From: Candidatus Pantoea varia
GTDB taxonomy: Bacteria; Pseudomonadota; Gammaproteobacteria; Enterobacterales; Enterobacteriaceae
DNA: 64,000 bases
Reading direction: 5' to 3'
NCBI RefSeq assembly: GCF_900115075.1
Contig: NZ_FOVG01000006.1
Coordinates: 62,001-126,000 of the forward strand
Within the stretch, counting starts at the first letter, position 1. The number at the start of each line of letters is the position of its first letter. Shown here one piece after another: positions 29,957-44,958 of the stretch. Below the pieces are notes generated by a model. The model was given only the letters and a program-made list of their open reading frames with translations, was not told where the DNA came from and did no database searches. A program made the translations under genes and the position numbers.

Positions 29957-31066
29957 TTAGTTGGTTAACAACCGCAGCATACGACGTAGCGGTTCGGCTG
30001 CGCCCCATAACAGCTGGTCGCCAACCGTGAAGGCGGAGAGATATTCCGGCCCCATATTCAGTTTACGCAGGCGGCCAACCGGTGTGGTCAGCGTGCCGGT
30101 CACAGCGGCGGGTGTCAGTTCACGCATCGTCAGCTCGCGGTCATTCGGCACCACGTTGACCCACTCATTGTGAGAGGCCAGCAGCTGCTCAATTTCAGCC
30201 AGCGGCAGGTCGCGTTTCAGTTTCAGCGTAAAGGCCTGGCTGTGGCAGCGCAGCGCACCGACGCGCACGCACAAGCCATCAACCGGAATGACTTTAGAGG
30301 TGGCGAGGATTTTATTGGTCTCTGCCTGGCCTTTCCACTCTTCGCGGCTCTGGCCGTTATCCAGCTGTTTGTCGATCCACGGAATCAGGCTGCCCGCCAG
30401 TGGTACGCCAAAGTTATCAGTTGGCAGGGTGCCGGAACGGCTGAAGTCGGTCACGCTACGTTCGATGTCGAGGATCGCCGAGGCCGGGTTCTGCAGCGCA
30501 GGTGCCACGTGATCGTGCAGCATGCCCATCTGGGTCAGCAGTTCACGCATGTGGCGCGCGCCGCCGCCAGAGGCTGCCTGATAGGTAGCAACCGATGCCC
30601 ACTCCACCAGATCCTGGGCAAACAGGCCGCCCAGCGACATCAGCATCAGGCTGACGGTACAGTTACCGCCGACAAAGGTTTTGATGCCACGGTCGATACC
30701 CTGGCGAATCACAGCATGGTTGACCGGATCGAGGATGATGATGGCATCATCTTTCATCCGCAGCGTGGAGGCCGCATCAATCCAGTATCCCTGCCAGCCG
30801 CTGGCACGCAGCTTTGGATAGACGTCACTGGTGTAGTCGCCGCCCTGGCAGGTAATGATGATATCCAGCGCGCGCAGCGCTTCAATATCAAACGCATCCT
30901 GCAATGTGCCCTGCTGTTTGCCCGCAAACGCGGGTGCCGCCTGACCATGCTGCGACGTCGAGAAGAAGACCGGATTGATTGCATCAAAATCACGCTCTTC
31001 GCTCATGCGGGACATCAGCACTGAGCCGACCATACCGCGCCAACCAACAAAACCTACATTCTTCAT
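29957..31066 (-). CDS. asd: Aspartate-semialdehyde dehydrogenase Asd
   Basis: Asd reduces beta-aspartyl phosphate to aspartate semialdehyde with NADPH, feeding lysine, diaminopimelate, methionine and threonine synthesis; it is essential for cell wall growth. The 369-residue protein begins [17 protein letters not shown] (dinucleotide-binding loop GxxGxxG). The catalytic Cys136 sits in [12 protein letters not shown], next to the conserved [12 protein letters not shown]. It is separated from glgB by a long gap and from the divergent yhgN by about 217 bases, as in E. coli. Confidence 0.97.
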
Positions 31067-31283
31067 GTCGTGTCCGTCTAAGGCAGTTACACCTGCTTTT
31101 CATTTCAGAGGAGAGAGCGGCGTGCTATTTTCACGCCGCTCTGCGTAATAATAAGATTTACCTGTGTCCCCTCACTCTACAAAATGCAGGCCGGGTAGCA
31201 AGTGAATTAATTCGATTACGCTAACTTTTTCAGCAGCGTAACTAATAACTCCGCTTTTTCGCGAACAACATGGCGCAAAACCG

Positions 31284-31877
31284 ATGACTGAAATGATTTC
31301 GGCGACAATATTATTGTTGTTAATTATGGATCCGCTGGGCAATCTGCCGATTTTTATGTCGGTTTTAAAGCATCTGGAGCCGAAACGGCGGCGGGTTGTG
31401 TTAATCCGCGAAATGTTGATCGCGCTGATCATCATGCTGCTGTTCCTGTTTACCGGCGAACGCATCCTGGCGTTTTTGAATCTGCGCACTGAAACCGTGT
31501 CGATCTCCGGCGGGATTATCCTGTTTCTGATCGCCATCAAGATGATTTTCCCGTCGGCTGAAAGCAGCAGTTCTGGCTTACCCGCGGGCGAAGAGCCCTT
31601 CCTGGTGCCGCTGGCGATTCCGCTGGTCGCAGGACCGTCGCTGCTGGCGACGCTGATGCTACTGTCACATCAGTATCCGCATCAGATGTCGCATCTGGTC
31701 GGCGCACTGTTGATCGCCTGGGGCGTGACGGTGGGTATTCTGCTGATGTCAGGTCTGTTCCTGCGTCTGCTGGGGGATAAAGGCGTGAATGCGCTGGAGC
31801 GCCTGATGGGATTAATACTGATTATGCTGGCCACCCAGATGTTCCTGGACGGCATTCGGGCTTATCTGAAGCTGTAA
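31284..31877 (+). CDS. yhgN: MarC-family inner membrane protein YhgN
   Basis: YhgN is a 197-residue UPF0056/MarC-family membrane protein of unknown substrate. It has six predicted membrane helices. Family hallmarks include LLLLIMDPLGNLPIFMSVLK at the start, SISGGIILFLIAIKM, EEPFLVPLAIPLVAGPSLLATLML and the C-terminal GVNALERLMGLILIMLATQMFLDG. Its length and position beside asd match E. coli. MarC proteins were once linked to multidrug resistance, but that role is not supported. Confidence 0.92.
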   Translation: MTEMISATILLLLIMDPLGNLPIFMSVLKHLEPKRRRVVLIREMLIALIIMLLFLFTGERILAFLNLRTETVSISGGIILFLIAIKMIFPSAESSSSGLPAGEEPFLVPLAIPLVAGPSLLATLMLLSHQYPHQMSHLVGALLIAWGVTVGILLMSGLFLRLLGDKGVNALERLMGLILIMLATQMFLDGIRAYLKL

Positions 31878-31955
31878 GCGCACCTGTGTCCTTTTACCCT
31901 GGCAGGCGAGCAGGCTGCCACCTTCATTCAGCCGGCTTATCACAACTTTACGACA

Positions 31956-31983
31956 TTGAAATGAACAATAATATTTATATAAT
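31956..31983 (+). promoter_or_regulatory. Strong sigma70-type promoter for the 32006-32874 module
   Basis: TTGAAA (31956-31961) and a perfect TATAAT (31978-31983) are separated by 16 bases in an AT-rich stretch. The start point would fall near 31990, giving a leader of about 16 nt with the ribosome-binding site AAGGAGA at 31994-32000. Confidence 0.65.
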
Positions 31984-32005
31984 GCCGTAAAAAAAGGAGA
32001 TATCC

Positions 32006-32548
32006 ATGGCGGGCAGTATCGAAAATTATGCCGGGACAGGCGTATTTATTATCGCAGAACGGCTTTACAGCAGGGACGCGCCTAACTGGCACGGTGTTGG
32101 CGCCTCCATGGTGCAGATTCACAAAAGGTTGTTATTACCCTTTTTTCTCGGCGCGCTCTATCTGATAACAGGTTACTTCTCCCTTCAGGAAGTCCTGCAG
32201 TATGCCAACAGCGGCCATTCAGGGGTGATCACAGATATGCGCAGTTATCTGGTTGCCCCGCTACTCTGCGCGTTGCTCTGGCTGCTGGTTTATCTGGTAG
32301 CCTGGTGGGGTTTCAGAAAAATTGCGCTCCTGTCCGTGGCTAAAGAAACAGCCTTTCAGGCGCTATTCTTTCTGGCAAATATCCTCTGTTTAGCTGGCCT
32401 GACAGTACTATCCTTCCCGGGCCAGAAAGCGGCATTGAATGACGTGCAGCTGATGCAAGTTGACGTCACTGATTTTGCCTGGGTTTACTTACTTACCGCC
32501 GCCATCACGCTGGTTGTTTTTGCTCTGATAAGAAGAAAATGGGCATGA
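32006..32548 (+). CDS. Hypothetical four-helix membrane protein (module gene 1)
   Basis: I do not recognise this 180-residue protein. The first 37 residues are soluble (MAGSIENYAGTGVFIIAERL and onward). About four hydrophobic segments follow, near residues 42-62, 82-104, 117-137 and 158-176. The ATG at 32006 is well supported by AAGGAGA at optimal spacing and a near-consensus promoter; a later in-frame ATG at residue 35, just before the first helix, has no ribosome site. The stop overlaps the next gene as ATGA, so the two are translationally coupled. The region looks AT-richer than its flanks and interrupts the E. coli order yhgN-gntU, suggesting lineage-specific gain. Confidence 0.75.
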   Translation: MAGSIENYAGTGVFIIAERLYSRDAPNWHGVGASMVQIHKRLLLPFFLGALYLITGYFSLQEVLQYANSGHSGVITDMRSYLVAPLLCALLWLLVYLVAWWGFRKIALLSVAKETAFQALFFLANILCLAGLTVLSFPGQKAALNDVQLMQVDVTDFAWVYLLTAAITLVVFALIRRKWA

Positions 32549-32874
32549 ACAGGCTGCTGCAGATTATCAAAAGCTGTCTGTTGCGCACCTTTAACTATCA
32601 AGGGCGTGAAGGCAGGACGAGCTATTTTATTTTCCTGCTGTTCCAGCTGGCCTGGTTCTGCAGTTATCTGCAATGGTTTACCGGGCCACAGCATGAAATA
32701 GGCTTAATCGCGCTGCTGCTGTTTATTTTACCTACATTTTCCTGCGGGGTGAGGAGAATAAATGACGCCGGCTATTCACGCGGCGTCATTGTCCTTTTGG
32801 TGGTGGCACCTTATCTGCTGTTCCCTTTTTTACTCTTCCCCCGCTCGCGGGAAAAAAAACTGAGGGGCAGATAG
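32545..32874 (+). CDS. DUF805 family membrane protein (module gene 2)
   Basis: The 109-residue protein has the DUF805 pattern: a short amphipathic start with YQGREGRTSYFIFLLFQL, a membrane hairpin, then the motif CGVRRINDAGYSRG (the family's RRLHDxGxSGW-like element) followed by two hydrophobic stretches and a basic tail (RSREKKLRGR). DUF805 proteins have no agreed function; E. coli examples are YhaH and YhaI. I prefer the ATG at 32545, which overlaps the upstream stop (ATGA), over the one at 32539. It runs convergently into gntU with only 13 bases between stop codons. Confidence 0.8.
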   Translation: MNRLLQIIKSCLLRTFNYQGREGRTSYFIFLLFQLAWFCSYLQWFTGPQHEIGLIALLLFILPTFSCGVRRINDAGYSRGVIVLLVVAPYLLFPFLLFPRSREKKLRGR

Positions 32875-32887
32875 CCCGTCAGGTTGG

Positions 32888-34228
32888 TCAGGAAAGCAGT
32901 TCGAAAGCAATCATACCTACGATAGCCCCGGTAGTACCGAGAATGGTTTCCATCAGCGTCCACGTCTTCAGCGTTTCCGCTTCGCTGGCCCCGGTAAAGC
33001 GACCAAACAGCCAGAAACCAGCATCGTTCACATGGCTGATAATGATGGAGCCGCCGCCGATGCAGATCGACAGCGCCGCCAGCTGGGCACCGCTGTAGTG
33101 CAGCGGTTCAATCACCGGCATGATTAAGCCCACCGTGGTCAGACAGGCGACCGTCGCCGACCCCTGAATCACCCGCACCGCACCCGCCAGAATAAAGCAG
33201 GCCAGCGCAATCGGCAGTCCTGCACCGGTCAGCGCATTGCCCAGCACCGGGCCGACACCGGAATCCACCAGCACCTGCTTAAATACACCGCCCGCGCCAA
33301 TCACCAGCAGGATAATCCCGGCCGGTTGCAGCGCGCTGCCGCACACCTGCATCACCCGCTCTTTATCCATGCCCTGACGGTAAGCCAGGCCATAAATCGC
33401 CACCAGCAGCGCCAGCAGAATGGCGGTGAAAGGATGGCCGATAAATTCCAGCCACTCATAAAGGGTGGTGCCTTCGGTCGTGAAGCGTGCGCCGATGGTT
33501 TTCAGGCCAACCAGCACCAGCGGAAACAGAATCAATGAGAGGCTGAAGCCAAACGACGGCAGCTTGCTCTCATCGACATCCGGTTGATGATCTTCCGGCG
33601 GCGCGCTGAACGTGACGTGGTTGCCGATGAAGTTACCAAACAGCGGCCCGGCAATCAGCATGCCGGGGATCGCCGCGCAGAGACCCAGCAGAATCATCCA
33701 GCCAAAGTCTGCATGCATCTGCGAAGCCAGCAGCATCGGGGCTGGCCCGGGCAGCAGGAACGCCGCCGCCGCCGCTACACCGGCAAACAGCGGGATCACC
33801 AGCTTCACCAGATTGCCGCCGGTTCGCCGCGCCACCGCAAAAGCGATACTGATTAACAGCACCACCGCCACCTCAAAGAAGAGCGGCAGCGCGCAGATCA
33901 GACCGGCAATGCCCATGGCGTAATGGGCGCGGCTCTGACCAAAGGTTTTCAGCATCCGGATAGCGATCTGATCCACTGCGCCGGTTTCATGCAGGATTTT
34001 GCCGAACATCGCGCCCAGCGCGACCACAATGGCGAGGAAGCCGAGCGTGCCGCCCATCCCCTTCTGCATCGTTTCAGCGATCTTGTTCAGTGGCATACCT
34101 GAGAACAACCCGGCACCGATGGAAACTAACATCAGCGCGACGAAGGCGTGCATCCGGGCCTTCATCACCAGAAAAAGCAGCAGCAGGACAGAGCCTGCTG
34201 CGGTCAAAACGAGTGTTGCGGTATTCAT
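32888..34228 (-). CDS. gntU: Low-affinity gluconate permease GntU
   Basis: GntU is a gluconate:proton symporter of the GntP family in the inner membrane. The 446-residue protein matches E. coli GntU along its length, including LFSGMPLNKIAETMQKGMGGTLGFLAIVVALGAMFGKILHETGAVDQIA, FLLPGPAPMLLASQMHADFGW and the C-terminal SHVNDAGFWLFGRFTGASEAETLKTWT. Twelve or more membrane helices are expected. It starts two bases after the gntK stop, forming gntKU. The high-affinity gntT is missing from its usual site next to nfuA, so this may be the main permease encoded in the region. Confidence 0.95.
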   Translation of the reverse strand: MNTATLVLTAAGSVLLLLFLVMKARMHAFVALMLVSIGAGLFSGMPLNKIAETMQKGMGGTLGFLAIVVALGAMFGKILHETGAVDQIAIRMLKTFGQSRAHYAMGIAGLICALPLFFEVAVVLLISIAFAVARRTGGNLVKLVIPLFAGVAAAAAFLLPGPAPMLLASQMHADFGWMILLGLCAAIPGMLIAGPLFGNFIGNHVTFSAPPEDHQPDVDESKLPSFGFSLSLILFPLVLVGLKTIGARFTTEGTTLYEWLEFIGHPFTAILLALLVAIYGLAYRQGMDKERVMQVCGSALQPAGIILLVIGAGGVFKQVLVDSGVGPVLGNALTGAGLPIALACFILAGAVRVIQGSATVACLTTVGLIMPVIEPLHYSGAQLAALSICIGGGSIIISHVNDAGFWLFGRFTGASEAETLKTWTLMETILGTTGAIVGMIAFELLS

Positions 34229-34230
34229 CT

Positions 34231-34767
34231 CTAATCCTGGCTGATAGCGTCCTGGATAGTCGCAACCGTAGCCGCCACCACGTCGTCCAGTGAATGCGCG
34301 ATATCCACTACCAGGATATCTGACTCGTCCTGCCCTGGCTCTTCCAGCGTGGCAAACTGGGTTACCAGCATCTGCGGCTTGAAGAAATGGCCTTTACGCG
34401 CTTTCAGACGGGCTTCGATGGTGTCGAAATCGCCTTTCAGGTAGACGAAACGCAGGTTGTCATTTCCCTGACGCAGAATGTCGCGATAACTTTTCTTCAG
34501 GGCCGAGCAGACAATGATGGAAATCGCCTGGGTGCGCTGCATGGCAAACGCGGCATCGTTGAGTGCCTGTAACCACGGCTGGCGATCGCTGTCATCCAGC
34601 GGATGACCATCGGCCATCTTCAGGATGTTGGCGCGGGGATGGAGAAAATCACCGTCAAGAAAAGCCGTATTGAGCTGGTGAGAAACCTGGTTGGCGACGG
34701 CAGACTTTCCGCTGCCTGAAACGCCCATCAGGATAAAGACGTGATGAGACGGGGATTGCGTTGTCAT
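34231..34767 (-). CDS. gntK: Gluconokinase GntK
   Basis: GntK phosphorylates gluconate to 6-phosphogluconate for the Entner-Doudoroff and pentose phosphate pathways. The 178-residue P-loop kinase has Walker A GVSGSGKS at residues 15-22, the substrate-region FLDGDFLHPRANILKMADGHPLDDSDR and CSALKKSYRD. It is the first gene of gntKU and is preceded by a GntR operator and a CRP-like site. Confidence 0.95.
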   Translation of the reverse strand: MTTQSPSHHVFILMGVSGSGKSAVANQVSHQLNTAFLDGDFLHPRANILKMADGHPLDDSDRQPWLQALNDAAFAMQRTQAISIIVCSALKKSYRDILRQGNDNLRFVYLKGDFDTIEARLKARKGHFFKPQMLVTQFATLEEPGQDESDILVVDIAHSLDDVVAATVATIQDAISQD

Positions 34768-34797
34768 TTTTCTGCTCCGGCAGGTGAGAATTTGCCA

Positions 34798-34813
34798 ATG
34801 TTACCGATAACAA
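34798..34813. promoter_or_regulatory. GntR operator upstream of gntKU
   Basis: ATGTTACCGATAACAA closely matches the palindromic GntR site (ATGTTACC-GTAACAT type). It lies about 31 bases before the gntK ATG, in a position to block transcription. Gluconate or 6-phosphogluconate relieves GntR repression in E. coli. Confidence 0.8.
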
Positions 34814-34879
34814 TGTCGTTTCTCATTCTCCTGGCCGGTTAACAGCCTGGCAACCTTTTTACCAGGAAATGCATGAAAG

Positions 34880-34895
34880 TGTGAGCTGACTCATA
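34880..34895. promoter_or_regulatory. Candidate CRP site upstream of gntKU
   Basis: TGTGA-N6-TCATA has a perfect left half and three of five matches on the right. It lies about 113 bases upstream of gntK, just past the gntR stop. gntKU is cAMP-CRP dependent in E. coli. Confidence 0.45.
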
Positions 34896-34907
34896 AAAAA
34901 ACCACAA

Positions 34908-35903
34908 TCAGATGCTTTCACCTTCACTGATCTCAAAACCGACATCCAGCAGCTGATTTTCACAGCTCTCACCTGCGATGCGCGCCAGTAACAGAGCGGC
35001 CGCTTCACGCCCCATACGATCGCGCGGTGTCAGCACCGTTGCCAGCTGTGGCGTCACCACCTGGCTGATGTCATGGCCGTGGAAACCGGCAATCGCCATC
35101 TGGGTGGGTACCTGCAATCCCTGGCGCTGGCACTCAAACATCGCGCCGACCGCCAGATCGTCATTGGTACAGAACAGACTGTCCGTTTCAGGGTAGAGAC
35201 GTTGCGCCTCACGCAGCAAATCGCCACCGGCGCTGAATGAAGAGGCATCTTCCATCATCACGCTGCGCGGCGTCAGCCCCGCTTCACGCATCGCGATTTC
35301 GTAACCGCGCTGCTTCTGCAGCGTACGTTCATCAAGTCGTGCACCGAGGTAGACAGTGTAACGATGGCCTTTGCTGAGTATCGCCCGCGTCATCTGCCGG
35401 GCCGCTTCAACATTATCAAAGCCGACCGCCATATCCAGGCAGGGCGTCACGCTGTCCATCATCTCAATCACCGGAATCCCGGCCACTTCCAGCATGCGCA
35501 GCGTGCCTGGCGTATGAGTGCGTTCGGTGAGGATGACGCCATCAATGTTCCAGCCCAGCAGCGAGCGCAGTTGCAACTCCTCTTTTTGCGGGTTGTAACC
35601 AAAGTGGGCGACCAGCGTCTGATAGTTGGCTTCGTCGGTGACGGCTTCGATGCCGCGCAGAACATCGGCAAAAACCTGGTTGGTGAGTGATGGCAGCAGT
35701 ACGCCGATGGCGCGACTGGTGGCGTTAGAAAGCATATCGGGGGCGCGATTGGGGATATAACCCAGCTCATCCAGTGCCACTGCAATCTTGTCCCGCAGGG
35801 CAAGAGAGACCTGCTCAGGATTGCGCAGGTAACGGCTGACGGTCATTTTTGTAATGCCGACGCGATCGGCAACGTCCTGTAATACCGGTCTTTTCTTCTT
35901 CAT
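34908..35903 (-). CDS. gntR: LacI-family gluconate utilisation repressor GntR
   Basis: GntR represses gluconate uptake and Entner-Doudoroff genes and is induced by gluconate or its phosphate. The 331-residue protein has the LacI-type N-terminal helix-turn-helix and hinge (LQDVADRVGITKMTVSRYLRNPEQVS, about residues 7-32), with a periplasmic-binding-like effector domain from about residue 60. It lies upstream of gntKU in the same direction, with a 140-base gap holding the operator at 34798-34813. Confidence 0.94.
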   Translation of the reverse strand: MKKKRPVLQDVADRVGITKMTVSRYLRNPEQVSLALRDKIAVALDELGYIPNRAPDMLSNATSRAIGVLLPSLTNQVFADVLRGIEAVTDEANYQTLVAHFGYNPQKEELQLRSLLGWNIDGVILTERTHTPGTLRMLEVAGIPVIEMMDSVTPCLDMAVGFDNVEAARQMTRAILSKGHRYTVYLGARLDERTLQKQRGYEIAMREAGLTPRSVMMEDASSFSAGGDLLREAQRLYPETDSLFCTNDDLAVGAMFECQRQGLQVPTQMAIAGFHGHDISQVVTPQLATVLTPRDRMGREAAALLLARIAGESCENQLLDVGFEISEGESI

Positions 35904-36005
35904 CGTAGCGCCTGGGATCGCCCTGAAAGCTAAAGTACGATGAGTCTATCACTTTTCTGTCACAAAATTGCCAACCGGGCGCGACGATGCGCGCCCGTTA
36001 TCTGC

Positions 36006-36701
36006 TTAGACCGGTGGCAGATCAAACAGCAGGACTTCTGCAGCCGAGCTGGCTTCAATCGTCAGCGCGCTTTCGTCCCAGATCGCCAGGGCATCGCTGG
36101 TGGTGACCGCATTACCGTTAACGGTCACATCGCCTTTAACCACCTGAATCCAGATACGACGTCCTGCATCAATCGCAACGTTGTCCTGCTCACCGGCAGC
36201 CAATACCCAGCGCGATAAGGTCATGTCCTGATAAACTTTCAGCGATCCTTCACGTGCATCCGGGCTTAATACCAGCTGACGCCCTTTAATATCCGGGAAG
36301 CGGCGCTGATCGTAACGTGGCTCAATGCCGGTACGCTCAGGAATGATCCAGATCTGATAGAGGTGCAGCGGATCGCTTTCGCTGGCGTTGTACTCAGAGT
36401 GACGGACGCCGGTGCCGGCGCTCATGATCTGGAACTCCCCTGCCGGGATCTGCTCTTTGTTGCCCATGCTGTCCTGATGTTCAACCGTACCCGAGAGCAC
36501 GTAGGTCAGGATTTCCATATCTTTGTGAGGATGGGTACCAAATCCCTGACCGCCATCAATCACATCTTCGTTGATGACCCGCAGCGCGGAGAAACCCATA
36601 AAGTTCGCATCGTGATAGCTGGCGAAAGAGAAAGTGTGCCAGCTATCCAGCCAGCCATGGTTTGCGTGACCGCGTTCTTCAGCTTTGCGTACATAAATCA
36701 T
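36006..36701 (-). CDS. yhhW: Pirin-like protein YhhW (quercetin 2,3-dioxygenase type)
   Basis: YhhW is a two-domain cupin (pirin family); E. coli YhhW has quercetin 2,3-dioxygenase activity in vitro, but its physiological substrate is unknown. The protein is 231 residues with the ATG at 36701, the E. coli length. The metal site is visible in GTHPHKDMEILTYVLSGTVEHQDS, with a further conserved segment IMSAGTGVRHSEYN. The frame extends to a TTG at 36707, but GAGGAG lies properly spaced for 36701. RyhB is encoded just upstream on the same strand. Confidence 0.92.
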   Translation of the reverse strand: MIYVRKAEERGHANHGWLDSWHTFSFASYHDANFMGFSALRVINEDVIDGGQGFGTHPHKDMEILTYVLSGTVEHQDSMGNKEQIPAGEFQIMSAGTGVRHSEYNASESDPLHLYQIWIIPERTGIEPRYDQRRFPDIKGRQLVLSPDAREGSLKVYQDMTLSRWVLAAGEQDNVAIDAGRRIWIQVVKGDVTVNGNAVTTSDALAIWDESALTIEASSAAEVLLFDLPPV

Positions 36702-36836
36702 GTTCAAATCTCCTCAATGTTTTTTATAGTCTGTCCCTGAGGCGGTCTGATTGATAGCTGAAAAACTTCACGCCTCTGTTCAAAATAGTTGAATGAGCAT
36801 TGAGCAGTGGCTGAAAAGCACTGAAAAAGGGCAGGC

Positions 36837-36931
36837 AAAAAAAAGCCAGCGGATAAGCTGGCTAAATAATACTGGAAGCAATGTGAGCAATGTCGTGCTT
36901 TCTCAGGCTGTCGATGACCTCCCGGGAATGC
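36837..36931 (-). ncRNA. ryhB: Iron-responsive small RNA RyhB
   Basis: The minus strand carries the RyhB conserved core, which includes AAGCACGACATTGCTCAC, then ATTGCTTCCAGTATTA. It ends with the Rho-independent terminator AGCCAGC-TTATCC-GCTGGCT and eight T residues (36837-36844). RyhB is made when iron is scarce and, with Hfq, down-regulates mRNAs of iron-using proteins. The 5' end is placed near 36931 from a -10-like TATTGT; the first ~30 nt diverge from E. coli. A Fur box covers the promoter. In E. coli ryhB lies between yhhX and yhhY; here yhhX is gone and the sRNA sits between yhhW and yhhY. Confidence 0.93.
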
Positions 36932-36936
36932 ATGAC

Positions 36937-36955
36937 AATAATAATCATTATCATT
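36937..36955. promoter_or_regulatory. Fur box at the ryhB promoter
   Basis: The 19-bp sequence AATAATAATCATTATCATT contains ATAATCATTATCATT, an excellent fit to the Fur consensus (repeated GATAAT/ATTATC units). It covers the expected -10 to -35 region of ryhB, so Fe2+-Fur would repress it. Confidence 0.92.
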
Positions 36956-37048
36956 CGCGTCTGTAAAGTCATTTTCACACTTTTCACCCTGCTTAATGCA
37001 GTGAATACCTTGATGTTTAAAGGGTTTTATTGGGCTAAAGGAGAGATC

Positions 37049-37543
37049 ATGAGTGAAATAGTTGTCCGCCACGTCACGCCAGAAGATGCTGCTGCGCTGC
37101 ACAGGATTTACAGTCAGCCAGATACCCAGGCCAGCACACTCCATTTGCCCCACTCATCACTCCAGATGTGGTACACCCGTCTCGCCACGCCTCAGCCCAA
37201 TGCGCATCTGTTGGTGGCCTGTATTGATGATGAAGTGGTCGGTCAGTGTGCGCTGCACGTGGAAGATCGCGCCAGACGCCGCCATGCAGCCTCACTGGGT
37301 ATGGGCGTGGATGAACGCTACCGGCAGCGAGGCGTCGGCACTGCACTCATGCGTGAAATGGTCTCGTTGTGCGACAACTGGCTAAAGGTGAGCCGAATGG
37401 AGCTGACGGTGTTCGTCGATAATGGACCGGCCATCGCCCTTTATCAGCGTTTCGGTTTTGAGATTGAGGGAACGGCCACGGGCTTCGCATTGCGTCACGG
37501 TGAACTGATCGACGCGCATTATATGGCGCGGGTTAAAGCCTGA
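37049..37543 (+). CDS. yhhY: GNAT-family N-acetyltransferase YhhY
   Basis: YhhY acetylates small amines or amino acids; E. coli YhhY has been linked to amino-acid N-acetylation, but the native substrate here is unknown. The 164-residue protein has the GNAT acetyl-CoA loop in GMGVDERYRQRGVGTALMREMV (RQRGVGTAL) and the C-terminal VDNGPAIALYQRFGFEIEGT. I chose the ATG at 37049 with AAAGGAG six bases upstream. The upstream frame to 36890 would run through the antisense of ryhB and is not credible. A strong terminator follows the gene. Confidence 0.9.
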   Translation: MSEIVVRHVTPEDAAALHRIYSQPDTQASTLHLPHSSLQMWYTRLATPQPNAHLLVACIDDEVVGQCALHVEDRARRRHAASLGMGVDERYRQRGVGTALMREMVSLCDNWLKVSRMELTVFVDNGPAIALYQRFGFEIEGTATGFALRHGELIDAHYMARVKA

Positions 37544-37551
37544 CGTGTACA

Positions 37552-37584
37552 AGCAGAAAGGGCACCGAAGGTGCCCTTTCTGCT
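37552..37584. terminator. Long-stem terminator after yhhY
   Basis: AGCAGAAAGGGCACC (37552-37566) and GGTGCCCTTTCTGCT (37570-37584) form a perfect 15-bp stem with a GAA loop, eight bases past the yhhY stop. The internal CTTT/AAAG tracts can act as the uridine-rich element on either strand. Confidence 0.8.
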
Positions 37585-37621
37585 GATAAACCCTGACAAG
37601 GTTCGCTGTCAGTTAGCGCCT

Positions 37622-37733
37622 GCGCAGGAAACAGGGTCAGGTCGGAAAGACGCAAAAGCCGTCATCCATGACAGGCTCGGCCCGCGCCGTCCTGCCGCGG
37701 GACGCTTTCCTCTTCTGACCCAGTTACCTGCGC
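37622..37733. other. Folded intergenic element, three-way-junction type, function unknown
   Basis: Nested perfect pairings are visible: GCGCAGG (37622-37628) with CCTGCGC (37727-37733); GGGTCAG (37634-37640) with CTGACCC (37715-37721); and GGAAAG (37644-37649) with CTTTCC (37705-37710). Inside lie two hairpins: GCCGTCAT/ATGACAGGC (37658-37676) and CCCGCG/CGCGGG (37681-37701). A separate hairpin CTGACA/TGTCAG (37592-37612) precedes it. It lies between the convergent 3' ends of yhhY and ggt. It could be a repeated intergenic palindrome or a structured RNA. Confidence 0.6.
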
Positions 37734-37794
37734 GTTAAGCTTATTTATTGCTGTCAGATTCACCGGGGTTTGAGTTTTTCAGTAGTCTCAAATC

Positions 37795-39546
37795 TCAATA
37801 ACCCGCACTCAAATCATCAATACTGCGCGGATCAGAAGCGCCATATAACATGCCATCCGGCCCAATCATGATGCTCTGCGTACTGCCCATCGATGGCAGC
37901 ACTTTTACATGCTGACCTTTGGCTTCCAGCAGACGCAGCGTATCGGGACTGAAGCCCTTCTCCACCCGCAGCTGATCCGGCAACCACTGATGATGGAAGC
38001 GCGGCGCATTGGTGGCTTCCGCCACGTTCATTCCAAAGTCGATGCTGTTAACCACCATCTGCAACACCGTGGTGATAATGCGGCTGCCGCCAGGACTGCC
38101 GGTTACCAGCCAGGTTTTGCCTCCTTTGGCGACGATAGTCGGCGACATTGATGACAACGGACGTTTCGCTGGCTGAACCGCATTCGCTTCCCCGCCGACC
38201 AGCCCGTAGACATTTGGCGTGCCTGGCTTAGCTGAGAAGTCATCCATCTCATTATTCATCAGGATACCGCTGTTGCCCGCCACAATCCCGCTGCCGAAAT
38301 AGGTGTTAAGCGTGTAGGTCACCGCGACCGCATTGCCCTGCTTATCCACCACCGAGAAATGCGTCGTCTGATTACTTTCATAAGGTTCGAGCTTGCCCGG
38401 CTTGATCTCGCTGGAAGGGCGCGCCTTCGCCACATCGATCTGCTGCGCCAGCGTTTTGGCATACGCTTTACTGGTCAGCGCCTGCCACGGCACCTTCACG
38501 AAATCGGGATCGCCGAGATATTCTGAGCGGTCCGCATAGGCATATTTTTCCGCTTCCGCCATCACCTGCATGGCGTCAGCACTGCCAAAGCCCATCTTCG
38601 CCAGATCGAAGTTCTCCAGGATATTCAGGATCTGCACGATGTGGATGCCACCGGATGACGGCGGCGGCATTGAGAAGACTTCATAGCCACGGTAAGTCCC
38701 GCTGATGGGCTTACGCTCGACCGCACGATAGGCCGCCAGGTCAGCTTTGTTGATCAGGCCGCCGTGTTGTGCCATCTCTCCGGCGATTTCATCCGCAATT
38801 TCGCCTTTGTAAAAGGCATCCGGTCCCTGACGGGCAATCAGTTGCAGGCTGTGAGCCAGGTTCTTCTGCACCAGCCGATCGCCCTTCTGCCACGGCGTGC
38901 CGTCCGGTTTGTAGAAAATTGCTTTGCTGTTGGGATGGGTGATCAGCACTTCTTTGCCGTAGGTTTTCAGGTCATCCGCCAGTGCGTCATTGACCGGAAT
39001 ACCGTCACGCGCCAGTTTGATCGCCGGTGCCAGCAGGGTGCTCAGCGGCAGCGTGCCATATTTTTGCGCGGCCAGCGCCAGTCCGGCGACGGTACCCGGC
39101 GTACCGGAGGCGAGATGCGATGTCAGCGACAGCTTACTGTCGGCGTTGCCCTGCTTATCCAGGAACATGTCGCGCGACGCGTGCCCCGGTGCCATTTCAC
39201 GGAAATCGATAGCGGTAGCGCGGCCCGATGCGGTGCGCAGCAGCATAAAGCCCCCCCCGCCCAGGTTGCCCGCCTGCGGATGGGTCACGGCCAGCGCAAA
39301 GCCCACCGCGACCGCGGCATCCACCGCATTCCCGCCCTGTCGCAGAATTTCCACACCCACCTGGGTGGCCATCGCATCCACCGACGCCACCATGCCATGC
39401 TGCGCTTTTACCGGGTGAAAAGTATCACTGTCCACGCCGTAGGAGACCGGCGGAGCCTGTACAGGCGCAGCGTTAGCACCCGCCACTACGGTGAAACTCA
39501 TCACCAGCGACCAGCTAAGCTGACGCACTGTTTGCTGCATTTTCAT
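37795..39546 (-). CDS. ggt: Gamma-glutamyltranspeptidase Ggt
   Basis: Ggt is a periplasmic N-terminal-nucleophile hydrolase that cleaves glutathione and other gamma-glutamyl compounds or transfers the gamma-glutamyl group. The 583-residue precursor has a signal peptide ending near residue 26 (VVAGANA). It self-cleaves into large and small subunits before Thr394 in ESNQ-TTHFSVVDKQGN; the corresponding E. coli nucleophile is Thr391. Other family blocks are NAVDAAVAVGFALAVTHPQAGNLGGGGFML and RPLSSMSPTIV with GSPGGSRIITTV. Confidence 0.96.
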   Translation of the reverse strand: MKMQQTVRQLSWSLVMSFTVVAGANAAPVQAPPVSYGVDSDTFHPVKAQHGMVASVDAMATQVGVEILRQGGNAVDAAVAVGFALAVTHPQAGNLGGGGFMLLRTASGRATAIDFREMAPGHASRDMFLDKQGNADSKLSLTSHLASGTPGTVAGLALAAQKYGTLPLSTLLAPAIKLARDGIPVNDALADDLKTYGKEVLITHPNSKAIFYKPDGTPWQKGDRLVQKNLAHSLQLIARQGPDAFYKGEIADEIAGEMAQHGGLINKADLAAYRAVERKPISGTYRGYEVFSMPPPSSGGIHIVQILNILENFDLAKMGFGSADAMQVMAEAEKYAYADRSEYLGDPDFVKVPWQALTSKAYAKTLAQQIDVAKARPSSEIKPGKLEPYESNQTTHFSVVDKQGNAVAVTYTLNTYFGSGIVAGNSGILMNNEMDDFSAKPGTPNVYGLVGGEANAVQPAKRPLSSMSPTIVAKGGKTWLVTGSPGGSRIITTVLQMVVNSIDFGMNVAEATNAPRFHHQWLPDQLRVEKGFSPDTLRLLEAKGQHVKVLPSMGSTQSIMIGPDGMLYGASDPRSIDDLSAGY

Positions 39547-39752
39547 CCTGCCACCATCCCGTATTGTTATTTACATTTTTTTATCATTTCTGCAAGTGTC
39601 TACAAATACAGCAAAATAACCGGGGTTAAGTCAAATCAGGAATACATCTGAAAGTAAGGTCTGTGATATCGGGTAAACTTATGGATGCGACCCTGAGATC
39701 GGTGTGCGCCGTTGTGCACCCAAAACCCTGTCGCGTTAAGGAAGGAGGAGTG

Positions 39753-40046
39753 ATGAAAAAGTGGATGATTGTTTTAGCTGCCCTGCTGCCTTTCGCCAGC
39801 CAGGCGAACACGCTGAACAGCACCAACGATCCGAACAAACCGGGCTATAACCCAAGCCAGCAGCGGATGCAGTCGCAGATGCAGACCGGCCAGCAGCAGC
39901 AACAGCTGAAGCTGCGCCAGGATCAGCAGCGTCAGACGCAGGACATGCAGCGTAAAATGCAGGAACAGCGGAACAGCACCCAGCAGCGGGTAATTACCTC
40001 GCAGCCGGGCCAGCAGAATCAGAATCAGAATCTAAACCAGAACTAA
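39753..40046 (+). CDS. yhhA: YhhA-like DUF2756 secreted protein
   Basis: The 97-residue protein has a signal peptide ([20 protein letters not shown]) followed by a low-complexity, glutamine- and asparagine-rich mature part ([24 protein letters not shown], then [10 protein letters not shown]). This fits the YhhA/DUF2756 family, whose gene also lies between ggt and ugpQ in E. coli; its function is unknown. AAGGAGGAG precedes the ATG at 39753. The stop overlaps the convergent ugpQ stop by a few bases. Confidence 0.85.
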
Positions 40047-40786
40047 TGAAAATCGGGGCCAATGATGTCGATGCTGTCGGTACAGATGGCATCGACGCCC
40101 CACTTCAGTAATTCCCGCGCCCGATCCGGGCTGTTCACGGTATAAACCAGAATCTTCAGTCCGCCTGCTTTCAGTTCGGCGACACGCTCAGCGGTCAGCA
40201 CCTTGTGATTGAGATGGATCGACACGCACGCCAGCGCGGTCGTTTTTTCCTGCCACTCTGGATCCCAGCTGTGCGACAGCAGGCCACGCGGCAGCTGCGG
40301 CTCGACCTGCATCGCCGCGTCCAGCGCCTCAAAAGAGAACGAGGAGAGCAACGGTGCAGTCTGACCCTGCCACAGGATCGCGGCAGCCTGGGCCACGGCG
40401 CGCCCGGTTTCGGCGTCACTGCCGGTGGTCGGTTTGATCTCGATGTTCGCCATCATCTGATGCTGACGGCAGCGGGCCGCTACGTCATCCAGCCGCGCCA
40501 GCTTCTCGCCGGTAAACGCGTTGCCAAACCAGCTGCCCGCATCGAGCTGCGACAGCTTCTCCCACGGCAGCTGACCCGCCACGCCCCAGCCGTTGCTGGT
40601 GCGATCCAGCGTGTCGTCATGCAGCAGGAAGATCTGCGCATCCAGTGATAATTTGGCATCAAACTCAATCATCTGATGACCATATTTCGCACCGGTGTCG
40701 ATCGCGGCCAGCGTGTTTTCCGGTGCCAGTTTACCGCCGCCGCGATGGGCGACGATGCGGGGATAGGGCCAGTGTTGTGTGCTCAT
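40043..40786 (-). CDS. ugpQ: Cytoplasmic glycerophosphodiester phosphodiesterase UgpQ
   Basis: UgpQ hydrolyses glycerophosphodiesters imported by the Ugp transporter to glycerol-3-phosphate and an alcohol. The 247-residue GDPD protein has the catalytic motif [19 protein letters not shown] with the paired histidine in [13 protein letters not shown], the metal ligand region ANIEIKPT and the C-terminal [21 protein letters not shown]. It has no signal peptide, unlike GlpQ. The ATG at 40786 overlaps the ugpC stop (ATGA), so I use it rather than 40849. Confidence 0.94.
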
Positions 40787-41856
40787 TCCAGACGCTTTCC
40801 ATGGGTTGAATCGAAGAAGTGTAACGCATCTGGCGGCAGATGCAGCCACAGCGTACTGCCGGGCTGCGGGCGTTCGCTGTGGGCTAAGCGTACCACCAGT
40901 GGCGTGTCACCGATGCGACCATGTGCCAGATTATCGGCGCCCAGCATCTCCAGCGTATCGACCCGAAGCGGCACACCGCCCTGCTCACGGCTACTGAGCT
41001 GGATATGCTCTGGCCGGATACCCAGCACCACCGGCCGGTTAGCCCATTTCGCTTTACTGTCGCTGAGCGGCAGTGCGTGTGAGGCATCCAGATTAAAGCG
41101 TGTGCCGTCACTGCTGAACTGCCCTTTCAGCAGGTTCATGGCGGGCGCGCCGATAAACGAGGCAACAAACAGGCTGGCAGGACGTTCATACACGTCAACC
41201 GGCGTGCCGAGCTGTTCGACCACGCCTTTGTTCATCACCATCACCCGCTGCGCCAGCGTCATCGCTTCGACCTGATCGTGCGTCACATAGAGGCTGGTGG
41301 TCTGTAAGCGGCGATGCAGCAGTTGCAGCTCCAGCCGCATCTGCACCCGCAGGCGGGCATCGAGATTCGACAGCGGCTCATCGAACAGAAATACCGCCGG
41401 TTCACGCACGATGGCCCGACCCATCGCCACGCGCTGGCGCTGTCCGCCCGAGAGTTCGCGAGGCCGACGCATCAGCAGGTGATCCAGCTCCAGGCTGCGC
41501 GCCGCGTCGAGCACCCGCTGCCGGACCTGCTCTTTGCCCATCCCGCGGATTTTCAGGCCATAGGCCATGTTCTCCTCCACCGACATGTGGGGATAGAGCG
41601 CGTAGTTCTGGAACACCATTGCAATGCCGCGATCTTTAGGCTCTTCCTGGGTAACGCGCCGGTTGTCGATATAGATATCGCCGGAGGTGACGCGCTCCAG
41701 TCCGGCCACCATGCGCAGCAGAGTCGATTTCCCGCAGCCGGATGGCCCGACCATCACCATAAACTCGCCGTCATTGATCGTGACGTTCAGCGGCTGAATG
41801 ATCTGGTTTTTGCCATCGTAGGACTTGGTTACTGCCTGAAGGGTTACGCCTGCCAT
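40783..41856 (-). CDS. ugpC: sn-Glycerol-3-phosphate ABC transporter ATPase UgpC
   Basis: UgpC powers the Ugp importer. The 357-residue protein belongs to the MalK-type ABC ATPases. It shows Walker [11 protein letters not shown]-loop [12 protein letters not shown], signature [14 protein letters not shown], Walker B VFLFDEP and the H-loop [18 protein letters not shown]-terminal TOBE/regulatory domain follows (about residues 240-357). The ATG at 41856, one base after the ugpE stop codon, gives [13 protein letters not shown], matching E. coli; the longer frame to 41895 overlaps ugpE. Confidence 0.95.
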
Positions 41857-41857
41857 C

Positions 41858-42703
41858 TTATTTCTCACTCTCAACCAGACCGCGCACAAAGGCACGCTGC
41901 ATGACTAATACCACCACCAGCGGCGGGATCAGGGTTAATAACATTGCTGCCATCACTTCGTTCCACTGGGTCGGCGATCCGCTGGTGGAGATCATGCTTT
42001 TGATCCCCGCCACTGCCGTGCCGAGGCTGGCATCATTGATGATCAGCAGCGGCCAGAGATACTGGTTCCAGCCGTAGATAAAGGTGATGACAAACAGCGC
42101 CGCCAGATTGGTTTTCGACAGCGGCAGGACAATGTCGATGAAGAAGCGCATCGCGCTGGCCCCGTCGATGCGCGCCGCTTCCACCAGCTCATCCGGCAGC
42201 GACATAAAGAACTGGCGGAACAGGAAGGTGGCGGTCGCCGACGCCATCAGCGGCAAGGTTAATCCGCTGTAGCTGTCGAGCAGATGAAGGTCGGCGATCA
42301 CCTGCACCGTGGGGAAGATACGCACCTCAACCGGCAGCATCAGAGTGATGAAGATCAGCCAGAAAAAGAGCGTGCGCAGCGGAAAGCGAAACCAGACCAG
42401 CGCAAACGCCGACAGCATCGACACCGTGATTTTGCCGAAGGTGATACCCAGCGCCATAATCATGCTGTTGAGCAGCATCAGGCCAAACGCCGGCCCGCTG
42501 CCGTTGACGCCGTGAGTCCAGATGCGCGAGATGTTCTCCCACAGGTGCGTGCCGGGCACCAGCGTCATCGGCACCTGATAGACCGCCTCGTTATCCAGCG
42601 TCGCCGCCACAAAGGCGACATAGAGCGGAAACAGGATGGTGAGCACGCCCAGCACCAGCACAATGTGGCTGAAGATATCCAGTCCGCGTCGATTCTCAAT
42701 CAT
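41858..42703 (-). CDS. ugpE: sn-Glycerol-3-phosphate ABC transporter permease UgpE
   Basis: UgpE is one of two permease subunits of the Ugp importer. The 281-residue protein has six predicted helices (first near residues 12-34) and the ABC permease EAA loop [26 protein letters not shown], which docks with UgpC. The start overlaps the ugpA stop by four bases (ATGA). Confidence 0.95.
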
Positions 42704-43587
42704 TGGTATTGCACCTTACGTTCAACAAAGCGGAACTGGAGCACCGTCAACCCAATGACCAGCAACATCAGCACCACCGACTGCGCAGCGGACGAGGAGA
42801 GATCCAGCCCGGTAAAGCCTTCGCGATAAATTTTGTAGATCAGCGTGGTGGTCGCCTGCACCGGCCCGCCGCCGGTTGCGGCATCGATCACCGGGAAGGT
42901 ATCGAAGAAGGCATAGATCAGGTTCACCACCAGCAGGAAGAAGCTGACCGGCGTAATCAGCGGCAGTGAGAGGTTGAAGAAGCGACGCACCGGTCCGGCA
43001 CCGTCAATCGCGGCGGCTTCCACCAGCGATTTGGGGATAGACTGCAGTGCGGCGAAGAAGAACAGGAAGTTGTAGCTCATCTGCTGCCAGATCGAGGCCA
43101 GCACCACCAGGAACATCGCCTGACCGCTGTTCTGCGCGTAGTTCCAGTTGTAGCCGAAGTGGTTCAGCAGGTAGCTGAACAGGCCCAGGCCAGGGTTAAA
43201 CAGAAACATCCACAGCACCGCGGCCACCACGGGCGCAACGGCGTAGGGCAGCAGCAGCAGGGTCTGATAGAGGCGGCGCAGTCGTACCACATAATCCACC
43301 AGCGCTGCCAGCAGCAGCGAGAAGACCATGCCGAACACCGTGACCATGCCGCTGAATTTGATGGTGGTCCAGAACGAATCCAGATAGTAAGGATCGGCAA
43401 ACAGCCGCGTGAAGTTTTCCAGCCCGACAAAGCTGCTGGAGATGCCAAAAGGATCGAGGCTTTGCAGCGAGTACCACAGCGCTTCACCGGCAGGCCAGAG
43501 AAAGAAGATAGCGGTAATCAGCAGTTGCGGCAGCACCAGAAGATAGGGCAACAGGCTGGTGCGAAAGACCGGACGAGATGAAGACAT
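42700..43587 (-). CDS. ugpA: sn-Glycerol-3-phosphate ABC transporter permease UgpA
   Basis: UgpA pairs with UgpE to form the membrane channel. The 295-residue protein has six predicted helices and the EAA loop [24 protein letters not shown]. It follows ugpB after 54 bases and overlaps ugpE by four. The arrangement ugpB-A-E-C-Q equals that of E. coli. Confidence 0.95.
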
Positions 43588-43641
43588 GGCGTACCTGACG
43601 TCAGAAAAGAGGGGCCAGCCAGGCTGGCCCGCATGGAGAGA

Positions 43642-44958
43642 TTACTTCACCTGCTGCTGGAAGCGGCGCAGCAGCTCGTTGCCGCGTTTCACTGCGTTAT
43701 CCATCGCGTTTTGCGGTGACTGTTTGCCGGTCCAGACGCTTTCCAGCTCTTCGTCGATCACGGTACGAATCTGCGGCATGTTGCCCAAACGCATCCCTTT
43801 GGTGAACGGCAATGGCGGCTTGTTCATCATCTGACGGGTGGCGATATCCGCACCCGGATTCTTATCGTAGAAGCCCTGCTGTTTCGTCAGCTCGTAGGCG
43901 GCGGTAGTAATCGGCAGATAGCCGGTTTTCTGGTGCCATTCCGCAGCGATTTCCGGTTTAGCCAGGAACTGCATAAACTCAGCTACGCCTTTGTAGGTTG
44001 CCGCATCTTTGCCTTTCATCACCCACAGGCTGGCACCGCCGATCAGGGCGTTCTGCGGCGCATTCGGCACGGTGTCGTCATACGGCATCATGCCAACGCC
44101 GAAGTTGAATTTGGCGTAATGACGGATATCAGCCAGCGAACCGGATGAGGCGGTGGTGATACCGCAGTCGCCGTTGTAGAACTTGGCGGTGGACTCATCT
44201 TTGCGGCCAAAGTAGGTGAAGTCCCCTTTCTTGTTCATCGCTTCCAGCTGTTCAATATGACGAACCAGTACCGGCTTGTTGAACTCCAGCACCGCATCGA
44301 GTCCGTCAAATCCATTGTTTTCAGTCGCTACCGGCAGAGCATGCCAGGCGCTGAAGTTTTCAATCTGGATCCAGCCCTGCCAGCCGCTGGCGTAGCCACA
44401 ACTCATGCCCGATTTACGCAGTGCGGCGGCATCCGTCGCCAGCGCCTGCCAGGTTTTAGGCGGCTGGTCCGGGTTCAGGCCCGCTTTTTTAAAGGCGTCT
44501 TTGTTGTAGTAGAGCACCGGCGTCGAGCTGTTGAACGGCTGAGAGATCAGCTGACCTTTGCTGTCGCTGTAGTAGCCCGCCACCGTTGGCACGAATTGTT
44601 TTTCATCGAAAGGAATGCCGGCATCTTTGAAGACCTGATGCACCGGCACAATCGCTTTTGAGGCCATCATGGTCGCCGTACCGACTTCATAGACCTGCAG
44701 CACCGCAGGCGCTTTGCCGCTGCGCACAGCCGCAATCCCTGCTGCCAGGCTCTGCTCGTAGTTACCTTTGTAGGTCGGAACAATTTTGTAATCGGGATGC
44801 GTCTCGTTAAAACGCTGTGCCAGCGAATCCACTTCTTTGCCTAACTCGCCTTCCATAGAGTGCCAGAAAGGGATCTCAGTGGCGGCCATGGCATGGCTGC
44901 TGAGCGTCAGACCGAGCAGCACGCTCATCAGGCTACGACGAAAGGTAACGACGGACAT
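43642..44958 (-). CDS. ugpB: sn-Glycerol-3-phosphate-binding periplasmic protein UgpB
   Basis: UgpB captures glycerol-3-phosphate and glycerophosphodiesters in the periplasm for UgpAEC. The 438-residue precursor has a signal peptide with likely cleavage after SSHAMA (about residue 26). The mature protein starts [22 protein letters not shown], a family-1 solute-binding protein. AGGAAAA precedes the start. It leads the operon and is preceded by three pho-box heptads, pointing to PhoB activation in phosphate starvation. Confidence 0.96.

Follow-up and report, generated by a model that had tools for sequence, protein, structure and literature searches.

What holds a small RNA together when its seed is identical to that of a distant relative and its 5' end is not? 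The ryhB gene in the window, by which we mean the whole 64-kb stretch of Candidatus Pantoea varia DNA analysed here, raises this question in a simple form. It had been predicted from the sequence as a RyhB retained after loss of the neighbouring gene yhhX, whose first 30 or so nucleotides have diverged from E. coli. We therefore consider in turn the identity of the gene, its neighbourhood, its 5' leader and its probable targets.

The ryhB gene and its promoter

A covariance-model search with RF00057 (RyhB) matched positions 36902-36837 of the minus strand with 83.5 bits, compared with a gathering threshold of 55 (E 6.4e-15), and this was the sole Rfam match within 30000-44000 at E<=0.1. The gene is thus an ordinary RyhB, a member of a known family of iron-responsive small RNAs, and was correctly spotted in the original prediction. 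The RNA is predicted to span 95 nt (36837..36931, minus strand), which is the length annotated for E. coli K-12 RyhB; its 5' end at 36931 was placed by a promoter-spacing rule that also reproduces the annotated K-12 start. The anticipated conserved parts are both present, namely a seed/core of 31 nt, GCACGACATTGCTCACATTGCTTCCAGTATT (36868..36898, minus strand), identical to that of E. coli, and an intrinsic terminator (36837..36863, minus strand) recognised from the RF00057 alignment and the sequence as a hairpin followed by eight U.

The promoter consists of a -10 element TATTAT (36938..36943, minus strand) and a -35 element TTTACA (36962..36967, minus strand) 18 nt upstream of it. The 19-bp Fur box that had been proposed to cover this promoter is found as sequence at 36934..36952, overlapping the -10 element. 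In a scan of both strands of the 64 kb against the Fur consensus, this box scored 17/19 on the plus strand, where the next-best site elsewhere reached 14, and 16 on the other strand, where the best site elsewhere again reached 14.

Two small open reading frames were considered and set aside. The frame that runs from an ATG at -2 through the RyhB RNA was rejected, as the predicted transcription start falls on the G of that codon and leaves the ATG outside the RNA. A nine-codon frame resembling RyhP reads IAHIASSII* in the window, and it was dismissed as a conserved frame since its stop is missing in L024 and in the sapA-side RyhB copy described below.

Gene order and the history of yhhX

The divergent neighbour of ryhB (37049..37543, plus strand) is a yhhY homologue, a GNAT acetyltransferase by Pfam with 55.8% identity to E. 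coli yhhY, whose best NCBIfam match is PRK10140, although it stays under the PRK10140 cut-off. Among the 13 loci returned, the closest named YhhY proteins are those of Pantoea sp. WMus005 (96%) and P. agglomerans NBRC 102470 (94%). Next downstream of ryhB lies a yhhW homologue (36006..36701, minus strand; Pfam Pirin), 75.8% identical to E. coli yhhW. The window locus is the yhhY-ryhB-yhhW copy of RyhB in Pantoea, the same locus as RyhB2 of P. ananatis, for which both published primers (PMC6749038, accessible portion) lie in L025, the yhhY-yhhW copy of genome G011. The leader of P. ananatis RyhB2 is 31 nt long and differs in sequence from that of the window. According to the accessible portion of the same study, both RyhB and RyhB2 were detected by sRNA-seq, RyhB2 was followed by cell density and not by iron, and qRT-PCR suggested a negative effect of Hfq on RyhB2 (PMC6749038).

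In E. coli the order is yhhY-ryhB-yhhX-yhhW, whereas in the window yhhX is not adjacent to ryhB and the yhhW homologue comes next, as had been predicted. A YhhX orthologue was not found in any of 61 Pantoea genomes (61/61) with the E. coli YhhX query; only distant relatives appeared, the best match per genome being 35-39% identical where identity was listed, with weak matches of unlisted identity in three small genomes. Genomes carrying YhhX also have the relative at 35-37% identity, so this relative is a different gene. Likewise, yhhX was not seen in 30 Pantoea loci (L001 and L003-L031; about 3 kb each, L004 shorter), in 18 of which yhhW adjoins ryhB, and other genera free of yhhX have the ryhB-yhhW order of Pantoea. 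Across the family sample, full-length YhhX at 79% identity or more occurs in 52 of 246 genomes.

Does this absence reflect a loss? In a tree built from one marker gene (Asd) for 30 chosen genomes, with bootstrap values not fully settled, the nine yhhX carriers (79-97% identity) group as a single clade (97/96), which is nested within the 21 genomes that do not carry yhhX (identity at most 37%). Among the latter, the three outgroups from other families reach at most 34% identity or, for two of them, give nothing at E<=1e-40. Besides, yhhX stands directly before yhhW in all 21 full yhhX loci that were fetched (21/21), and in 20 of them ryhB lies no more than about 1 kb away. Because the carriers are a single clade nested among non-carriers and yhhX sits between ryhB and yhhW, one insertion is a simpler account than repeated losses. 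An ancestral yhhX that disappeared from Pantoea and from many further lineages would also account for the genus-wide absence, by a single old loss; it would nevertheless require several losses as against one gain, given the nested carriers and the yhhX-free outgroups, and we consider it highly improbable. The tree and the gene orders suggest that yhhX was probably not lost in Pantoea but inserted once, in the E. coli-like lineage, at its place between ryhB and yhhW; the supposed retention of RyhB after loss of yhhX is not supported.

The 5' leader and its hairpin

The leader of the window RNA (36899..36931, minus strand; 33 nt) shares 12 of 33 positions with E. coli, an identity not clearly above that of shuffled sequence (8.9 expected; 16% of shuffles reach 12), so the divergence claimed for the 5' end is real. 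Folding nevertheless places a hairpin, SL1, in this leader, in which RNA nt 4-6 pair with 30-32 and nt 8-11 with 25-28, the inner part being GTC-ATC-GAC, with a C-A mismatch at 7/29. Pantoea leaders at the yhhY-side locus are 30-35 nt long and start with GC, and all 32 distinct ones, folded alone, form a hairpin near both ends. When they were joined to the tail of the window RNA, the minimum-energy structure kept this hairpin in 30 of 32 (L019 and L020 refold), while of 17 non-Pantoea leaders treated as full-length RNAs in the same way, those of E. coli and L118 refold. In L033, L046, L047, L054 and L244 the RyhB leaders measure 85-115 nt and contain long hairpins, compared with 30-35 nt in Pantoea.

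The pairing is retained while the bases change. Counted from the two ends of the Pantoea leaders, pair 7/-5 is T-G, T-A, C-G or A-T, with an unpaired C-A in 6 of 32, the window included, and pair 8/-6 is C-G or G-C and is unpaired in 9 of 32. Only G1, C2 and G20 are invariant in an alignment of 30 Pantoea leaders; part of the inner stem is conserved as sequence, since A21 and C22 accompany G20 at 90% or more. With 3' halves exchanged between leaders as the null, pairs 4-9 of the 32 distinct Pantoea leaders are 85.4% paired, against 74.5 +/- 1.8% after exchange (0/20,000), and adding 17 leaders of other genera gives 85.0% against 71.8% (0/20,000); the 17 non-Pantoea leaders alone show no significant difference (84.3% against 81.5%; 3138/20,000). 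A second, tree-aware null, in which the inferred substitutions were moved along the yhhY tree, was applied to 29 of 40 Pantoea loci, those with a sufficiently long and non-identical yhhY. Here pairs 4-11 are 79.7% paired against 58.9 +/- 7.8% (1/2,000) and the covariation is 0.321 against 0.162 (16/2,000), the number of double pair types being not significant (277/2,000); about 3.5 branches per reconstruction alter both sides of SL1 yet keep the pairing. By these sequence comparisons, SL1 is kept in Pantoea by compensatory change.

For the wider set of loci, the evidence is one of folding. By a loose closure criterion, 139 of 145 distinct leaders fold closed, six do not, and 80.1 would be expected by shuffling; 138 of 145 exceed the mean stability of their own shuffles. 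These 145 represent all 173 loci with none dropped; the loci are the best search returns plus chosen stretches and not a random sample, and the leaders are related by descent, so that the counts are not independent. An earlier set of 123 leaders (148 of the 173 loci, 6 having been excluded because their promoters scored below 23 and 19 for U-tail delimitation) agrees, with 119 closed against 67.9 expected. Some of the six low-promoter loci have weak hairpins (-2.6 and -1.9 kcal/mol in L279/L280, -4.9 kcal/mol in L281), and in L098, L117 and L278 the core was not found. L279/L280 (G036, another family) comprise two RyhB-like matches about 370 bp apart, both under the Rfam cut-off and with weakly folded leaders. 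The RF00057 model has 67 positions and begins at the core, so SL1 lies outside the Rfam model. Taken together, the folding predictions suggest that SL1 occurs in most RyhB RNAs of the family, where it is difficult to spot from sequence. The diverged 5' end of the window RNA is most naturally seen as a hairpin whose fold is conserved and whose sequence can change.

A second copy and the spread of RyhB

The search for a second RyhB paralogue, proposed together with the original prediction, found one in the same genome, adjoining sapA (SapA equivalog). Among 35 other Pantoea genomes, counted with stricter filters at which some weak matches were lost, 32 have two RyhB genes, one has three and one has one, and a reduced genome gave a single weak match. 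Two copies per genome are also known from Salmonella (RyhB-1 and RyhB-2; PMC8002944, as far as the accessible text goes), the second one of Pantoea being that by sapA. Over the host's family, a RyhB match is present in 191 of 295 sampled genomes.

Several single loci deserve mention. In the Pantoea genome of L286 (G019) the only RyhB found has a leader of the sapA-side type, and the yhhY-side copy may have been lost or missed. Upstream of the sapA-side RyhB in L062 lies a second Fur-like palindrome (3323-3341, 14/19), and a motif resembling it, TGAGAA-AATTCTCA, occurs upstream of RyhB copies in other genera (L035-L040, L045, L053). RyhB-like sequences were also met on plasmids. A third, shortened one is located at about 3370-3430 of L069, on plasmid pPAT9B02 of Pantoea sp. 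At-9b (172364-172424), which is typed as conjugative and whose host genome already has two RyhB genes. Another, on the 10.9-kb Enterobacter roggenkampii plasmid p1_090065 (L152, 2441-2502), is flanked by YeaQ-family and diguanylate cyclase genes, has an IS903B transposase and an integrase in its vicinity, and is perhaps excised chromosomal DNA. The last, on the 222-kb Klebsiella pneumoniae plasmid p2 (L153, 2501-2561), precedes the gene for a Fiu siderophore receptor by about 1.3 kb, on its upstream side. Among matches to a phage collection, the two large records are Salmonella contigs.

Predicted targets of RyhB in Pantoea

The genome of the window encodes one Fe/Mn superoxide dismutase, which scores above the Mn-type NCBIfam cut-off and below the Fe-type one and is 45% identical to K-12 SodB. 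Exactly one such enzyme is present in each of 61 Pantoea genomes (61/61; L155 and L163 are among the loci). The 12 Pantoea enzymes that were fetched, its own included, are at least 93.8% identical to that of the window genome, and the others, known from their profile matches and not from their sequences, match over the same span as the latter, unlike SodB. Since each genome has a single superoxide dismutase, of the manganese type where read, sodB, the classic RyhB target, appears to be absent from the whole genus although RyhB is kept. In the 191 RyhB-bearing genomes of the family, counted irrespective of type, one Fe/Mn superoxide dismutase occurs in 88 and two or more in 103.

According to the accessible part of PMC8544716, RyhB targets sdhC in E. 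coli. Both GGAAGCAA and TGTGGGCAA are present in the sdhC start region of Pantoea at all 30 loci examined (30/30, from the 61 genomes; 11 distinct windows). As the sequence separating these blocks is conserved almost to the same degree, conservation alone is no proof of pairing. The predicted pairing with the core reaches -28.3 kcal/mol, compared with -17.0 +/- 0.95 kcal/mol for shuffled cores (0/300), a level attained by 0.4% of background windows. Duplex energy is a blunt measure, as the scores of the proven E. coli targets sodB (-18.0) and sdhC (-17.8) are equalled by 20% and 22% of background windows. The K-12 sdhC start gives only -17.8, so the Pantoea site differs. From these pairing models, sdhC looks to be retained as a RyhB target in Pantoea, at a predicted site of its own. 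The sdhD pairing is weaker than that of sdhC (mean -23.2 kcal/mol; 4.7% of background windows). As a replacement target, sodA was rejected, its -16.4 kcal/mol being reached by 42% of background windows. Scanning the genome itself for the seed complement (RRTGTGRGYRRTG) gave 24 matches, against 15 for a reversed-pattern control; these were not accepted as targets, for the 24 include both ryhB genes, and in the remainder a single match, that in L217 (an SDR-like ORF), overlaps what could plausibly be a start. The proposal that the conserved core fixes target choice accordingly calls for qualification: the genus apparently has no sodB, while the sdhC site seems to be retained.

What the hairpin may do

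Compared with E. coli RyhB, the window RNA has the same core, Fur box, promoter spacing, length of 95 nt, 33-nt leader, SL1 geometry and yhhY on one side; it differs in leader sequence and terminator loop, in having no yhhX between ryhB and yhhW, in the second RyhB of its genome and in the apparent lack of sodB in its genus. We regard it as quite likely that the RyhB2 locus specifies a Fur-repressed 95-nt RNA with a self-folding leader, yhhX having been inserted only in the E. coli-like lineage. Iron-loaded Fur would presumably repress ryhB, and iron shortage would lead to production of the 95-nt RNA, whose core may then pair with mRNAs for iron-using proteins, sdhC being the best of three genes tested; Hfq and RNase E would silence the paired mRNAs. 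The leader could drift in sequence provided that it folds on itself and leaves the seed free, and this would be its main constraint.

Predicted accessibility is consistent with such a role. For 145 leaders, the seed is unpaired to 0.679 behind its native leader, as against 0.547 behind a shuffled one and 0.665 when no leader is present, the native value exceeding the shuffled one in 135 of 145 and the leaderless one in 112. Over 123 leaders, the leader of another species is as good as the native one (0.694 against 0.688), half-swapped chimeras fall below it (0.640, surpassed by the native leader in 93 of 123 cases), and leaders that have been reversed are lower still (0.581).

Two other readings of the leader have to be weighed against these data. 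The changed 30 nt might act as a new seed that pairs with Pantoea-specific targets, or might alter stability. Leaders do differ strongly between lineages, and the inner-stem GAC is nearly invariant in the 30 Pantoea leaders, as a new seed would have it; we still think this unlikely, because beyond G1, C2 and G20 no position is invariant whereas the pairing is kept, and the seed is predicted to be just as accessible with leaders taken from other species. Alternatively, SL1 may have no function, and the leaders may look folded through composition or shared ancestry. Chance closure is common among short leaders (80.1 of 145 expected), and truncated E. coli RyhB still represses, the upstream stem-loop having been dispensable in truncations cited in the accessible portion of PMC4231740. 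The half-swap and tree-aware tests in Pantoea run counter to this explanation, and so does the large-scale mutagenesis reported in that portion, in which E. coli required a stable SL1 for regulation of both tested targets, sodB and shiA, with RNA abundance little changed in most SL1 variants measured (PMC4231740). We therefore find it doubtful that SL1 lacks a function. The earlier suggestion that the 5' part may affect stability or extra targets thus holds in that the 5' part matters, while a maintained hairpin is favoured over new targets.

A bolder reading, to which we assign a probability of roughly 55%, is that RyhB is a molecule of two parts, a near-frozen seed and a 5' hairpin whose shape persists throughout the family as its sequence is replaced. 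Homologues recorded as being without SL1 would then mostly only look so, alignment being blind to SL1, and the seed of Pantoea, with no sodB, would be held by other targets, sdhC for instance. RyhB serves as a model among small RNAs, and the importance of SL1 was called surprising in the accessible part of PMC4231740, as many homologues of RyhB "do not have SL1 at all"; an SL1 that lasts as a structure despite sequence turnover would offer a testable answer to this puzzle. Moreover, given its apparent genus-wide lack of sodB, Pantoea would supply naturally occurring strains for finding out which other constraints keep the RyhB seed unchanged.
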